Below are positions 47,620-55,771 of a stretch of 64,000 nt of DNA, piece after piece. This DNA is from Neopusillimonas maritima (lineage in GTDB: Bacteria > Pseudomonadota > Gammaproteobacteria > Burkholderiales > Burkholderiaceae_B): contig NZ_NQOU01000004.1 of assembly GCF_003576595.1 (NCBI RefSeq), forward strand, positions 248,001 to 312,000, read 5' to 3'. The notes beneath the pieces are model-generated. The model was not told where the DNA came from. It saw only the letters and a program-made list of their open reading frames with translations, and did no database searches. Position numbers and translations under genes: made by a program. Every line of letters starts with the position of its first letter. Within the stretch, counting starts at the first letter, position 1.

Positions 47620-48750
47620 TCATGACTTCGGCATCGGCAAGGCCGGCGGGGTTATTTCAGAGTTCAGCGGTGCACTTACAATCTCTTTGGCATTCAAATC
47701 GAACGAATTCAGATCAATACCGCGCAACACCTGATTGTCGTACGTCTTAACGTAGTACATGCCATTGGAAAGATCTGCCACGGTCGACCACTGCGTATAT
47801 TCAAGCGGATCATCGCCTTGATCTTTTTCGCGCACCCAGCCTTTTGGAATATCAAAGTTATTCAGAATATGCTCGGCCAAGCGCACACTTTCGGGGCCGC
47901 TTGCCACCGGCTCAACACTCATGGTTAAGCCAAGCGCGCGAATGAAACGCGAGGGGGGCGTGCCGTCGCCAGGGATACCCAACAGACCCGAGCCTTGTCC
48001 AAAGGGCGAAATTGTCATGCCATCCAACTTAAGTGGCTCCGCATTCACACTTGAAAGCTTGACGTAGTTACTTAGGTTCGTAAGGTGCCAATCGAAAGTC
48101 GGTGAGTTCGTCATCACGCCCACGGGGTTGTCGTACACCTTCAACTTGCCATCGATAGGCTCAACAACCAACGACGCCCCACTTGCATCATGCAGTGTGT
48201 AATGCAGCGGCGGTGCAATTTTCAGCGCCTCCTGAATCACCTTCACAACAGCCACTTCGTTATTGTTAATGGCCGCTTTCACCTCTTCCACCGTTGCAAA
48301 GTTCGTCAATGCCCAGGTTAAGAAATCCCAAGGGGCAAGCGACTTGGCCGGATCCGCTTTGGCGGGGTCAGCGTAGTTGGCAAAGCCGGGGAAATACAGC
48401 ACGCCGCCTGCCAAACCTTTCTCGTTCATGCCGTCAACCAATGTACTCATGCCAAGCCCATTCAAACCCACGGCAGCATATTTGCCTGTCCAGGTCATCG
48501 CTTCCTTACCATCGGGGCCGATGGAAGACAGCTTATGGTTGCGCGGAATCACCATGGCTTTTGAATCCATGGAAAAACCGAACTCCATCGTGCGGCCATA
48601 AACCGACCCGCCATCGCTTGTAGGAATTAAAAAGCTCGTGCAAGCCGACGCAACATGCGGTGCCAGCATGGCTGCAGTCAGCAACGCTGCGGCAGTTTTG
48701 CGCACGGAACGGCGCCAGGAAAAAGTAGAAGACGAAACGCTGGAAGGCAT
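47620..48750 (-). CDS. penicillin V acylase / bile-salt-hydrolase-like Ntn hydrolase, secreted
   Basis: The 376-residue protein has a signal peptide ending SVRKTAAALLTAAMLAPHVASA. Cleavage exposes Cys37 (CTSFLIPTSDGG) as the N-terminal nucleophile. The family-C59 pattern includes YGRTMEFGF, GMNEKGLAGG and LGIPGDGTPPSRFIRA. Gram-negative members of this cluster often degrade acyl-homoserine lactones or penicillin V. Substrate here is unknown. It lies in the periplasm and is probably transcribed alone. Confidence 0.88.
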   Translation of the reverse strand: MPSSVSSSTFSWRRSVRKTAAALLTAAMLAPHVASACTSFLIPTSDGGSVYGRTMEFGFSMDSKAMVIPRNHKLSSIGPDGKEAMTWTGKYAAVGLNGLGMSTLVDGMNEKGLAGGVLYFPGFANYADPAKADPAKSLAPWDFLTWALTNFATVEEVKAAINNNEVAVVKVIQEALKIAPPLHYTLHDASGASLVVEPIDGKLKVYDNPVGVMTNSPTFDWHLTNLSNYVKLSSVNAEPLKLDGMTISPFGQGSGLLGIPGDGTPPSRFIRALGLTMSVEPVASGPESVRLAEHILNNFDIPKGWVREKDQGDDPLEYTQWSTVADLSNGMYYVKTYDNQVLRGIDLNSFDLNAKEIVSAPLNSEITPPALPMPKS

Positions 48751-48864: not shown

Positions 48865-50049
48865 TTAACTTCGCCGACGTTGCCAGAACGGCTGATCAGC
48901 CCAGCGAGGCTGCATGCCGTAATAATAATTTCGTTGCGTTAAATACGTTTGCCACAATTGCTGCTGTTGCGCGCTATATTGACCAATATAAGTGTTGCTG
49001 CTGCTTAACCCTGCTGCTTTTTCTTCAAAGTCACTTAACGCGTAATGAATCATATGCCCGGCATGGCTGGCGGTTCTAAGCGCCTTGTCGATACCTTGTG
49101 AAGACAGCGGGTCGTAAGCTTGCGCCGCATCCCCCACCGCCATCCAGGCATCACCGCAAAACGCTTGTAAACACTGGCTGTTAGCCGGTGCACCGCGAAT
49201 CGTGCCGCAAGGTTGGTAGCCCTTGGATTCAAGCAAAGGCCCAATATGGGTCGAGTCGCCCAGCAACGCGTCGAAGCCTTCCCGGCGCGCCGCCATTTTG
49301 GCTGCCGGTAAATCTTTATCGGAATGAAACACCACCAGGCGCATAGGTTCGCCGCCTTCAACAGCCGGTAAGCGGTTGCTATACCACCACCCATTAGGCG
49401 CCGCCTCAATCCGTGTGTAGTGCTCCTCATCGGGGTTCGCACAGGAAAACCATTGTGCATAGGCGAACAACTGGTCGTTATCGGGAACCGGCTGAACACC
49501 CAACGCCTTGGCCACCGCAGCCCGACGACCGGTGCAATCGACCAGATAGCGCGCACGAACCTGCATTGTTTGCGTTTCGGAACGAAGCGTTAATTGCCAA
49601 TTAAAATCGGCGTCTGTGGTCGTATGCACGCAGGATTCGAAGCGCACCTCTTCAAGCAGCGCAGCACCCGCCGCAACGGCCTTTTCCCGAAGGGCCTTAT
49701 CAAAAGCCAGTCGTTCAACGCACAAACCGAACCCCGTCGACGTAAAAAAGAACTCAGTGACATCGGGCTGTTCGGATGCCCAAACCGAAACATTCCCGGC
49801 CGTTCTAAAAACGCCTGGAAAATTTTGTGACGGGTCTTCAATATTGCCCAGGAAATGCTTAACGATACCGATGGAAGCAGGGGGCAGCGATTCGCCCAAC
49901 TTGAAGCGGGGGGCGGTTCGCTCCTCTACCAGCAGCACACGCCGGCCAAACCCGGCCAGCGTGATCGCGGTTGCAGCGCCTGCCGGCCCCGCCCCCACAA
50001 TCACCACATCCCACGTACCATCGGCCGGGTCGAACTGCGCTAGCGACAC
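48865..50049 (-). CDS. LodB-like flavoprotein
   Basis: The 394-residue FAD protein has VVIVGAGPAGAATAI at residues 15-29 and the second FAD motif AWMAVGDAAQAYDPLSSQGI near residue 300. It starts with GTG 50049, three bases after the LodA-like gene's stop. LodB-type flavoproteins are required for forming the cysteine tryptophylquinone cofactor in LodA-type oxidases, probably by hydroxylating the tryptophan. The pairing and order support that role here. Confidence 0.85.
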   Translation of the reverse strand: MSLAQFDPADGTWDVVIVGAGPAGAATAITLAGFGRRVLLVEERTAPRFKLGESLPPASIGIVKHFLGNIEDPSQNFPGVFRTAGNVSVWASEQPDVTEFFFTSTGFGLCVERLAFDKALREKAVAAGAALLEEVRFESCVHTTTDADFNWQLTLRSETQTMQVRARYLVDCTGRRAAVAKALGVQPVPDNDQLFAYAQWFSCANPDEEHYTRIEAAPNGWWYSNRLPAVEGGEPMRLVVFHSDKDLPAAKMAARREGFDALLGDSTHIGPLLESKGYQPCGTIRGAPANSQCLQAFCGDAWMAVGDAAQAYDPLSSQGIDKALRTASHAGHMIHYALSDFEEKAAGLSSSNTYIGQYSAQQQQLWQTYLTQRNYYYGMQPRWADQPFWQRRRS

Positions 50050-50052
50050 AAA

Positions 50053-52053
50053 TTATGATGCTTTGGTCGACGGCTTGTTCAAGGCCGGATCGCGCTCTTG
50101 CTCGGTGAACACAATCGACCCTTTATCCTTCACGAAACTACCGTCGCTATTCTTCATGGGCAACACCATGCCCAATCTCGGCCAGGCATAATCCATTTGC
50201 TGGTAACCGTCGGTAGACGAAAGCGGTTCGCCCTCTGCATCGTAGCCACGGAACCACTCTTTGTGTGTTCGGGTTTGCGTTGCCGGGTCGTATTCAAACA
50301 CCACCTCGGGCCGTTGTGTGGGCCACCAAGCTTCGTTGCACGACCAGAAATCGCCCTGCCACGGGCTGGACATATACGCAGCCAGCGAACCCGCCTCGAC
50401 ATCTTTACCCACACGAAACGCCTCAGCAAAATACTCGCGGTAAATAATCAAGTAAGGAAACTCGATACCTGGGTGGAAACCGCCCCCAATGGTGGGTTCG
50501 AGTGCTGAACTATCCAAGGCATGCGGTTGCTCGTTCAACGGCAACTGATCGAACGGTTTGGGTTCAATGGGTGTGCCGACATCGAAGTTACCGTCGGCCC
50601 AATTCTGCATGTGTTTCAACTGCCAATCGGTCAGGCTTAGGAACTGGTCTGGCAAGTCGATGCCCAATTGCTCATTCTGCAAAGGTTTACCGCCCGTGCC
50701 CCACAACTTGGGCATTTTGGAGGCGTCTTCTTCGCGTTGGAACTCTTCGTTCTTCCAACTGGTGGGCCGCTGAGGGGGAGGCGGCATGAGCGAATCAACC
50801 AACTTGCCGTTCTTCCCGGGCGCATGACGCATTAAGCTATAGATTCGTTGCCGAATGGGCTTCATCTGTTCGCTTGGGTCGGACAACAACTTCAGATAAT
50901 CGGCGTTCAGCAAATTACCCGGCTGGTTCGGGCCATGGGCACGCCCCTTTGTTTCACTTGTCAGGCCCGCCGCCTCGGCGCTCACCCAGCCATAATTCAC
51001 CGCATTGGCGAAGATCGGATACACATCGCGGTAGAAATTCGTTTTCTGGTTGGCGTACGGATACGACTCGGGGAAGGCCTCGTACACGCGATCGCGAATC
51101 GACACCACGTGATACATGTAGGGAGAATACTTTGGCGGCGCGGTCACCACCCAGGCCCCATTTGTAGGGTTGCGCGTGCCGTCGTCCATTTCCGATTTCA
51201 CGTTATCGCGCGTGCTCAGCACCGTGCCGTCGTTCAACGTCACGGTAACGTCGATTTCGCCGCCACAGGTGTCGTCCCACCAACCTGGAATATTGAAATA
51301 AGCAAACTGGTTCGTTAGTGGGTTCTGGCCATTATCGGGCCCATTCGGCGGCGACATGGTTTCACTGGGGTTCGACATAATCACCTTGGGCGTGGTGACA
51401 CTTTCGCCTTTCCCCGGTGCGGCCACAAATATCAATCGGCCTTGGTCATCAACGCGAAGCTGCCCCAGTTCAATATCTTTCGCCGCAGTGTAGGTCACTT
51501 CCACTTCCTTGGAAGGATCCTTCGGCGTAAACCCTTCAAAACGCAACTCTCCGGGCAAGGTGCCTTTCTCGATACCCGTGAAGACATCGCCCTTCATGAC
51601 GACCGGGTCTTTCTGACCCGAAGCAATCGTGTGCACACCCGGATCAATAATTAATTGATCGCGCTCAATGGGCTTCTTTCCTGGCTGAATAGACGGGTTA
51701 CGCAACTTATCGGGGTCGAACAAATAAGCGCCCTGAAACGCATAATTGGCCGACTTCATATTGCGCACATGAACCCGCCAGCGCAAGGATTTGACCGCGT
51801 CTGAGTCGGACGTTAGCTCGCCGATGACTTTATCGTTGGCGTCGTAGGCATACACCCGGTAGCGCTGCGCCTGACGCTTCAACCGCGCCTGGCCATCGCG
51901 GTAGGTGCCGCCGTTGGGCCCTGGGCCGCCGCTACCGCCCGGATCCACCACAACCCCCGGCGCTTCAGGGCCGATAAAGAATTCGTCGCTGTTCCCCAGC
52001 CTGGCAAGGCCGATACCAGGATGAATGCGAATGCGCTTAATCTGCTCGGACAC
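50053..52053 (-). CDS. LodA-like cysteine tryptophylquinone oxidase
   Basis: The 666-residue protein begins with the family hallmark IKRIRIHPGIGLARLGNSDE. The cofactor region has Cys572 in WSCNEAWWPTQRP and a candidate partner Trp624 in YAWPRLGMVLP. LodA and GoxA proteins are amino acid oxidases (lysine, glycine) making hydrogen peroxide, and often act as antibacterial factors. No signal peptide is present. Together with its flavoprotein and the Tat mini-protein upstream, it forms an operon. The substrate is unknown. The 52-residue spacing between Cys and Trp is from reading only and needs an alignment. Confidence 0.88.
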   Translation of the reverse strand: MSEQIKRIRIHPGIGLARLGNSDEFFIGPEAPGVVVDPGGSGGPGPNGGTYRDGQARLKRQAQRYRVYAYDANDKVIGELTSDSDAVKSLRWRVHVRNMKSANYAFQGAYLFDPDKLRNPSIQPGKKPIERDQLIIDPGVHTIASGQKDPVVMKGDVFTGIEKGTLPGELRFEGFTPKDPSKEVEVTYTAAKDIELGQLRVDDQGRLIFVAAPGKGESVTTPKVIMSNPSETMSPPNGPDNGQNPLTNQFAYFNIPGWWDDTCGGEIDVTVTLNDGTVLSTRDNVKSEMDDGTRNPTNGAWVVTAPPKYSPYMYHVVSIRDRVYEAFPESYPYANQKTNFYRDVYPIFANAVNYGWVSAEAAGLTSETKGRAHGPNQPGNLLNADYLKLLSDPSEQMKPIRQRIYSLMRHAPGKNGKLVDSLMPPPPQRPTSWKNEEFQREEDASKMPKLWGTGGKPLQNEQLGIDLPDQFLSLTDWQLKHMQNWADGNFDVGTPIEPKPFDQLPLNEQPHALDSSALEPTIGGGFHPGIEFPYLIIYREYFAEAFRVGKDVEAGSLAAYMSSPWQGDFWSCNEAWWPTQRPEVVFEYDPATQTRTHKEWFRGYDAEGEPLSSTDGYQQMDYAWPRLGMVLPMKNSDGSFVKDKGSIVFTEQERDPALNKPSTKAS

Positions 52054-52095
52054 GGCTTCTTTCCTTTAAAAATTGTGCTTAAAAAATAAGGCTGC

Positions 52096-52383
52096 CTAAC
52101 CGGCGCTCACGATTTTCCAATCGAGTAAGTCGGCCGATGCCACCTTATACCGATTACCAAAATGCTCGATGCTGGCGTAGGTGAGCCCGGCGGATTGCGT
52201 ATGAGCCTGTACCGAAAAGCCCCCGCCGAAGCTAGCTTTGATTGATTTTTCAATACGCGCGTTCATTGTCGCGTTCTGCACATTATTTGCATTAGCGACT
52301 TGTGCGGCCATAGCCATGCCCGGCACCATTAACGTTCCCGCCGCAGCACAGCCCTTAATGAAATCCCTACGCTTTATGCCCAT
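52096..52383 (-). CDS. small Tat-exported protein in front of the LodA-like gene
   Basis: The 95-residue protein starts at ATG 52383 with AAGGGGCGG upstream. Its N-terminus is a twin-arginine signal, KRRDFIKGCAAAGTLMVPGM, with cleavage near AMA. The remaining 65 or so residues (ARIEKSIKASFGGGFSVQAH...) match no family I know. It lies 42 bases upstream of the LodA-like gene in the same direction. Because that oxidase has no export signal, the small protein may help to carry it across the membrane or act as a chaperone or cofactor partner. This is inference. Confidence 0.7.
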   Translation of the reverse strand: MGIKRRDFIKGCAAAGTLMVPGMAMAAQVANANNVQNATMNARIEKSIKASFGGGFSVQAHTQSAGLTYASIEHFGNRYKVASADLLDWKIVSAG

Positions 52384-54827: not shown

Positions 54828-55346
54828 TTAATCTCTATTCTTCAGAATGCCGGCAACATCGGGAAAACCAGCAACCGCCGCAGCCGGCAATAACGCGTCG
54901 GTCGTTGCGTAGGGCCGCACTGAGGCATCGACATGTCCAACCACGATTCGGCCGACCATGCCCGCATGCTCATGGGGGATGCAAAAGTAGTCGTAAATAC
55001 CCGGCTTATCGAACTTTAGTGCAAAAGATTCGTCGGGCATTAAATAGCCGGAATCCCAAGACGCGGCTCCGCCGGGAATTCGCAGGGGTTTGCCATTGTC
55101 GGGATGATAGGCAGTGACCGTATGAACATTTCCCACCTCATGATTGACCCATCTAACGGTTTGGCCGGGTTGTATGAACAAACCACGCGGACGAAACCAA
55201 ACATGTGCGCCAGATGCAGCGCCGGACATGCTGATTTCAACCGCTTCAGCGGCAACAGAACGCCTGGAAAAAAGGGCTGACAGCAACAGGCCGGCGCCAC
55301 CCGATAGCAAAGCGCGCCGGCGCGCATTATCGACGAACGCTTTCAT
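54828..55346 (-). CDS. secreted cupredoxin
   Basis: The 172-residue protein from ATG 55346, overlapping the upstream stop (ATGA), has a signal sequence with RRRALLSGGAGLLLSALF, possibly Tat-type. The copper site is His in NVHTVTAY and the loop YFCIPHEHAGMVG, giving Cys, His and Met ligands as in plastocyanin and pseudoazurin. It probably carries electrons or copper in the periplasm. The gene lies eight bases before folE. Confidence 0.88.
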   Translation of the reverse strand: MKAFVDNARRRALLSGGAGLLLSALFSRRSVAAEAVEISMSGAASGAHVWFRPRGLFIQPGQTVRWVNHEVGNVHTVTAYHPDNGKPLRIPGGAASWDSGYLMPDESFALKFDKPGIYDYFCIPHEHAGMVGRIVVGHVDASVRPYATTDALLPAAAVAGFPDVAGILKNRD

Positions 55347-55771
55347 TTGGCAACCCGGCTTTCCGCATTTGCCGGTACATTCCAAAGCACGATATGAATG
55401 TGTGGCTCGGCAACGCCGGGGTGGCCCGCGTTATACACAATATCAACGTGATCAACCGACCCTGCAGGCGCTTTTAAATCATTCAGATTCATATCCGGTG
55501 TCATAAGCGACAACGGAATCATATAGGTGGTGTTAACCAGCTTACCGTCGCGGTCGTAACCCAGAAAAGGGCCGGCGGGCAGGCTGTCTGGATCGACAAA
55601 AAGCTGCCCCATACCCGGGATGAAATCCGGCAGTTTCACCAATGAACTCACTGCTTTGTGTGGCGCAGGAGGAGGAGCCTGCAACACTGAAGGCTCTGCG
55701 GCGGCAACACCGCCGACGGTAAAAGCAAACGTAGCAGCTGTTGCAGCTGCAGCAATAACAGGACGAATCAT
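55343..55771 (-). CDS. secreted protein of unknown function with histidine-rich motif
   Basis: The 142-residue protein from ATG 55771 (GGAG ten bases upstream) has a signal peptide MIRPVIAAAATAATFAFTVG with cleavage near AAA. The mature part ends with HVDIVYNAGHPGVAEPHIHI, whose histidines could bind a metal. It is the first gene of the cupredoxin-folE-sigma operon. It resembles a small periplasmic family of unknown role seen next to ECF sigma genes, but I cannot name it with certainty. Confidence 0.7.
   Translation of the reverse strand: MIRPVIAAAATAATFAFTVGGVAAAEPSVLQAPPPAPHKAVSSLVKLPDFIPGMGQLFVDPDSLPAGPFLGYDRDGKLVNTTYMIPLSLMTPDMNLNDLKAPAGSVDHVDIVYNAGHPGVAEPHIHIVLWNVPANAESRVAK

Follow-up and report, generated by a model that had tools for sequence, protein, structure and literature searches.

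The window analysed here is a stretch of 64,000 nucleotides from Neopusillimonas maritima (contig NZ_NQOU01000004.1, positions 248,001 to 312,000), and the system under study is a unit of three co-directional genes on its minus strand, at 48865-52383 of the window. The first gene (52096..52383, minus strand), here termed mini, encodes 95 amino acids (aa) from an ATG, or 97 aa from an upstream GTG. It is followed after 42 bases by the gene for a LodA/GoxA-family protein of 666 aa (50053..52053, minus strand, GTG start). Three bases beyond the lodA-like stop codon begins the gene for a LodB/GoxB-like flavin adenine dinucleotide maturase of 394 aa (48865..50049, minus strand, again with a GTG start). 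The initial annotation had described three co-directional genes, the third beginning three bases after the second, and the boundary at 50053 and 50049 bears this out. Promoter and terminator scans returned three candidates each, which does not exceed chance expectation; a single transcript is neither favoured nor disfavoured by them. Across loci, the stretches between mini and lodA (12-154 bases; all except the shortest were folded singly) displayed no shared pattern by eye.

The N-terminus of mini carries a predicted signal peptide for the twin-arginine translocation (Tat) system (52303..52383, minus strand; MGIKRRDFIKGCAAAGTLMVPGMAMAA), with the motif RRDFIK and a cleavage site placed by eye from the residues AMA. 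The NCBIfam Tat-signal model TIGR01409 matched with 27.2 bits (cut-off 16.7), in keeping with the earlier description of a twin-arginine protein of 95 residues, and Pfam TAT_signal reached 16.7 bits, under its cut-off of 22.7. The Tat signal was the sole family above cut-off when Pfam and NCBIfam were searched with E-values up to 10. We aligned 30 minis, namely that of the window and 29 of the 34 found in the genome scan described below (excluding L050, L066, L069, L075, and L077). The motif RRxF[ILVFM] was present in all 30, at identities to the window mini down to 30%. Positions I48, F52, G53, F56, I72, and W89 of the mature domain were invariant. This domain (52099..52263, minus strand), delimited from the alignment and a structural model, comprises the end of a helix and a four-stranded sheet. 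Modelled alone, mini forms one helix and four strands, with block-mean predicted local distance difference test (pLDDT) values of 89-95 at residues 41-95 and low values for the signal part. The median ratio of non-synonymous to synonymous substitution rates (dN/dS) of the mature part was 0.21 (15 sequences, 77 of 105 pairs usable). A Foldseek search of the model against the PDB gave nothing at E ≤ 0.001, the top matches being Dsb proteins (E 0.12 and 0.2), followed by weaker DUF2874 proteins. By Pfam, NCBIfam, and Foldseek, mini matched no known hitchhiker family (MelC1, small subunits of gluconate and glucose dehydrogenases) in sequence or fold.

The lodA-like product matched both Pfam domains of its family, LodA_N with 148.3 bits (cut-off 26.3) and LodA_C with 89.0 bits (cut-off 25). 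It remained under the NCBIfam equivalog cut-offs for LodA (108.8 of 600 bits) and GoxA (202.6 of 750 bits), and is therefore classed as a member of the LodA/GoxA family of neither named type. Its partner is nearest to the LodB (NF038171, 218.3 bits) and GoxB (NF038174, 211.1 bits) models, neither score reaching the equivalog cut-off of 400. A Foldseek search with a linked mini-LodA model listed LodA structures first (2ymw, 3wev, 3weu) and then GoxA, the best E-value being 1.5e-22 at a template modelling score of only about 0.4. The window protein was the sole LodA_C match in its genome, and no second LodA was found there at E 0.001. As already annotated, it lacks an export signal: the reading frame starts a few residues ahead of the conserved IRIHPGIG, which leaves no space for one.

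The cysteine tryptophylquinone (CTQ) of LodA is formed from C516 and W581 (PMC4417212); statements taken from articles cited by PMC number refer to the parts of those articles available to us. The corresponding residues were sought in an alignment of 63 LodA-family proteins (the window protein, 43 from the genome scan, and 19 distant LodA-like proteins; the fragments or partial sequences L081, L083, L091, and L111 were dropped). Cys572 (codon 50338..50340, minus strand) and Trp577 (codon 50323..50325, minus strand) were conserved in all 63, Trp600 in 61, Trp624 in 54, and Trp576 in 52, with Phe in the other 11. The initial annotation had singled out Cys572 and Trp624 as cofactor residues. The cysteine stands, and the choice of Trp624 was discarded in favour of Trp577 on account of the latter's invariance and of its setting in WWPTQRP, a WWPxQxP motif that is the counterpart of the YWWPPQSP containing W581 of LodA. 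Cys572 and Trp577 are thus predicted to form the CTQ pair. They are 5 positions apart, whereas Cys516 and Trp581 of LodA are separated by 65.

The association of mini with lodA was followed in two scans. Among 268 genomes of the bacterial family to which the window belongs, LodA-family matches (E 1e-10) occurred in 27 genomes and numbered 29, i.e. 20 close copies (73-100% identical, the window included) and nine distant ones. A mini lies directly upstream in all 19 close copies that could be assessed; the 20th (L035) ends at a contig edge. One genome (G516) possesses two mini-lodA copies (L021 and L044), whose LodAs are 83% and 79% identical to that of the window. The second, non-exhaustive scan covered 84,980 genomes with two short peptide patterns and shared some contigs with the first. 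It yielded 46 loci: three fragments (L081, L083, L091), seven loci without mini whose LodAs are 36-44% identical to that of the window (L084-L090), and 36 loci of the branch defined below. In 34 of these 36 a small open reading frame (ORF) with a Tat-like signal, the mini, occupies the upstream position; one of the other two (L073) is cut by a contig edge and offers just 113 upstream bases. At one of the 34 (L069, 5546-5909), signal and mature part are in separate frames of a complete genome record, reflecting either a sequencing error or decay. The organisms bearing mini include Alcaligenaceae, Nitrobacter, Bradyrhizobium, Phyllobacterium, Acidocella, Salipiger, rhodobacterial metagenome-assembled genomes, and gammaproteobacteria, so that the linkage spans alpha-, beta-, and gammaproteobacteria. 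Occurrence of the small gene beside other close LodA homologues was one of the points on which the initial annotation had let its proposal depend, and on this count neither scan refutes the proposal. Together with the dN/dS of the mature domain, these linkage counts indicate that the unit is not a chance arrangement.

Minis separated from LodA were sought with the mature domain. The family genomes contained 19 strong matches (E < 1e-23) in 18 genomes, all adjoining LodA: 18 were retrieved with their loci and share them with LodA, and the 19th, the second copy of G516, also stands beside LodA. The 398 genomes of the phylum contributed two strong matches, that of the window itself and another that adjoins LodA; among 369 genomes of the class, the window alone gave a strong match. 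No complete mini without LodA was thus found across the 268 family, 369 class, and 398 phylum genomes. Weak partial matches were obtained from the class (five, E 2.9e-5 to 8.1e-4) and the phylum (13, E 8.5e-4 to 0.0094), and 70 of the family genomes had weak matches only (E 3.5e-4 to 0.01). LodA was absent from all 18 class and phylum loci and from the two family loci inspected (L150, L152). As orphan minis the class and phylum matches were rejected: four of the 18 correspond to the Tat signal of a larger enzyme, and most of the remainder cover just 22-42 residues of a frame of about 470-590 aa and look like chance. Four of these long frames resemble adenosylhomocysteinase. Two short frames of 32 and 54 aa (L095, L131) have a SIK/GGGF-type mini motif at loci without LodA and represent chance matches or remnants. 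A search of the plasmid collection yielded one truncated mini (NC_007959.1, 84638-84856), located among transposase genes, in an insertion-sequence-rich stretch of a Nitrobacter hamburgensis plasmid, with no LodA match within the 12 kb read around it; it is a decayed remnant. Apart from this mini without lodA and a single LodA without mini (L072, see below), the partners are genetically inseparable.

When the 63 proteins were placed in a quick maximum-likelihood tree, those with a mini fell into one branch of 37 rows (Shimodaira-Hasegawa-like approximate likelihood ratio test value 99), which also holds L072 and L073; the program warned of long branches joining among distant rows. Distant LodA-like proteins were represented by 20 fetched regions, including six of the nine from the family genomes. 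Four of these six have their own Tat-like signal, with RR in L112, L114, and L115 and with KR in L117; the other two have neither mini nor signal. Small Tat-like ORFs within 1.5 kb were seen at one of the 16 other distant loci and at one of the seven sister loci (L084-L090), both downstream of the lodA start and dissimilar to mini; we regard them as chance ORFs. With L073 omitted, the states mini, own Tat signal, and neither require three changes on the tree; a possible reading is that mini was gained once and lost in L072, the third change accounting for the rows with an own Tat signal.

Genes for proteins with CxxCH motifs recur in the neighbourhood. Outside the 29-row subgroup that contains the window, all eight branch rows (L072, L074, L076-L080, and L082) have a protein with five CxxCH motifs after lodB, about 2.1-3.3 kb past the lodA start and with frames of 645-1262 aa from stop to stop. 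Judged by eye, the N-terminus resembles a signal for the general secretory (Sec) pathway in the L082 copy and a lipoprotein signal in the L072 copy. Haem binding is suggested by the motifs, the cytochrome matches of these two copies in Pfam being sub-threshold. Possibly, this protein is the electron acceptor of the quinoenzyme. In the sister group, a protein with one CxxCH motif is encoded upstream of lodA at five of the six loci with enough upstream sequence; at L084 the protein is present, and its open frame stops short of the motif. The upstream protein is mostly lipoprotein-like, and the LodA frames of this group measure 1062-1225 aa (L086 is cut at 961). Near L046 and L050 we also noted two dissimilar proteins, 280-290 aa long and with two CxxCH motifs.

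Taken together, these observations suggest that mini is probably a Tat carrier, or hitchhiker, subunit that takes the folded CTQ-bearing LodA to the periplasm. The features that point this way are the conserved gene order, the invariant RRxF, the LodA without a signal, and the restriction to one LodA branch; by profile models and motifs, one partner has a Tat signal and the other has none, as in a hitchhiker pair. We infer binding, export, and cofactor formation as follows. LodA would fold in the cytoplasm; there, by analogy with LodB and GoxB, the LodB-like flavoprotein would help to turn Cys572 and Trp577 into cysteine tryptophylquinone. Mini would then bind the folded enzyme via its small helix-plus-sheet domain, provide the sole Tat signal of the complex for joint export, and probably remain as a small subunit. 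Tat is the route for folded proteins, and TatC is encoded in the window genome. Since cytoplasmic maturation would yield a folded enzyme and the only Tat signal is on mini, co-export is the simplest account. Own Tat signals on some LodA-like proteins and the secreted five-CxxCH proteins at basal members also fit with a Tat hitchhiker.

Several observations weigh against this interpretation. The Gilvimarinus locus L072, with a LodA 66% identical to that of the window, has neither a mini nor an own Tat-like signal, and a search of its genome at E 0.01, run without a positive control, found no mini. The sister group and 16 of the distant LodA-like proteins also have neither, so a missing signal alone is no proof of a carrier. 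The linked mini-LodA model had a mean pLDDT of 66 and provided no interface measure, so that it speaks neither for nor against binding. Finally, the five-CxxCH protein was not seen in the available flanks of the 29-row subgroup, and a search of the window genome, again without a positive control, found no homologue; as a part of the window's own system it was therefore rejected.

With LodA leaving by another route, mini could instead be a dedicated periplasmic subunit or regulator, e.g. an inhibitor or an electron-docking piece. The occurrence of LodA-like proteins with neither mini nor Tat signal, the retention of LodA without mini in L072, and the well-predicted folded domain that mini possesses besides its signal are all compatible with such a role. 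We nevertheless consider it unlikely, given that the branch LodAs have no other visible signal and that mini, the decayed plasmid remnant excepted, was found only with branch LodA and always upstream of it. Still less probable, in our view, is a cytoplasmic maturation chaperone for LodA or LodB, whose Tat signal would serve proof-reading and for which export of LodA would be secondary. Tat helpers that also activate their cargo have a precedent in MelC1 and copper (PMC2758597), but RRxF is invariant in the aligned minis, and the known maturation step is already assigned to LodB in the literature. That LodA stays in the cytoplasm and mini is exported alone for an unrelated task, the linkage reflecting no more than shared regulation, is improbable: the linked model yields no support for binding, but the linkage extends across three classes in a constant gene order, with a single clear loss, and secreted five-CxxCH proteins adjoin the basal members.

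A more specific proposal concerns the function of the exported enzyme. Branch LodAs may be mainly Tat-carried periplasmic CTQ dehydrogenases rather than peroxide-making oxidases, with mini bringing the quinoprotein out and docking it to c-type cytochromes. This proposal draws on the five-CxxCH gene after lodB in basal members and on the one-CxxCH protein before lodA in the sister group; we regard it as tentative and would sooner doubt it than assume it.

Other genes surround the unit in the window. At 47620-48750 (minus strand), co-directional and 114 bases past lodB, lies a gene of the choloylglycine hydrolase/penicillin V amidase family with a signal-like N-terminus ending just before Cys37; it is outside the printed neighbour clusters common to at least four relatives. 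The segment 46982-47616 (plus strand) contains a HigB-like toxin gene and, after it, a gene for a helix-turn-helix protein resembling an antitoxin. A plastocyanin/azurin-type copper protein with the Tat-like N-terminus RRRALLSGG is encoded at 54828-55385 (minus strand), adjoining genes for GTP cyclohydrolase I and for a protein with a sigma-70 region that resembles extracytoplasmic function sigma factors.

LodA of Marinomonas mediterranea (group IA) has the same domain architecture, a CTQ formed from Cys and Trp, and a LodB-type partner, but it is encoded in a two-gene operon for which the available text describes no mini (PMC4417212). GoxA, a group II LodA-like glycine oxidase, likewise belongs to the family and has a LodB-type partner; its Tat signal is on the enzyme itself, with activity in the culture supernatant (PMC3948610, PMC4417212), whereas the signal of the window unit is on a separate small protein. 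Group ID lodA operons also contain a small gene of unknown function (PMC4417212), which, unlike the upstream mini of about 95 aa with its Tat signal, is placed between lodA and lodB, has a product of 138-142 aa, and has no domain reported in the part available. Quinohemoprotein amine dehydrogenase, whose gamma subunit is QhpC, resembles the proposed system as a CTQ enzyme that is modified in the cytoplasm but works in the periplasm; its CTQ subunit, however, exits via an ATP-binding cassette (ABC) transporter after leader cleavage (PMC7876137); the window protein matched the QhpC family at E 0.03 only, under the cut-off. Among the maturases LodB, GoxB, and QhpG, action in the cytoplasm has been published for QhpG, and for LodB we assume it (PMC7876137, PMC4417212).

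Small Tat-signal helpers are known for other enzymes. MelC1, the Streptomyces tyrosinase caddie, is encoded just upstream of the signal-less oxidase it exports (PMC2758597). Its cargo is a copper enzyme, and the Pfam search with mini listed, besides a TAT_signal under its cut-off, a single chance match; MelC1 itself was compared by description. The gamma subunit of glucose dehydrogenase is a Tat hitchhiker that the catalytic subunit needs in order to fold and be secreted, in a complex that also has a three-haem cytochrome subunit; it consists of five alpha-helices (PMC6719666), whereas the mini model has one helix and four strands. PaoABC is a further case of Tat co-export (PMC4273604).

In the open-access literature, with subscription papers largely outside the search, we found no mention of a Tat-signal partner encoded upstream of LodA-like genes; the 2015 survey notes that group II enzymes have Tat motifs, and the word 'upstream' is absent from its results section as available (PMC4417212). 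Tat hitchhikers and the LodA/GoxA enzyme family were known already, and what would be new here is a separate Tat carrier for a LodA-type enzyme. For CTQ enzymes, the sources available document two export routes: GoxA bears its own Tat signal, and quinohemoprotein amine dehydrogenase uses an ABC exporter. A separate carrier, if true, would add a third. The findings also raise the question of whether part of the LodA family hands electrons to cytochromes. If the proposed role is correct, mini would be a component perhaps required for producing active enzymes of this branch, and a function would be available for small proteins annotated solely by their signal sequence, such as the Nitrobacter plasmid homologue, the one annotated homologue we encountered.

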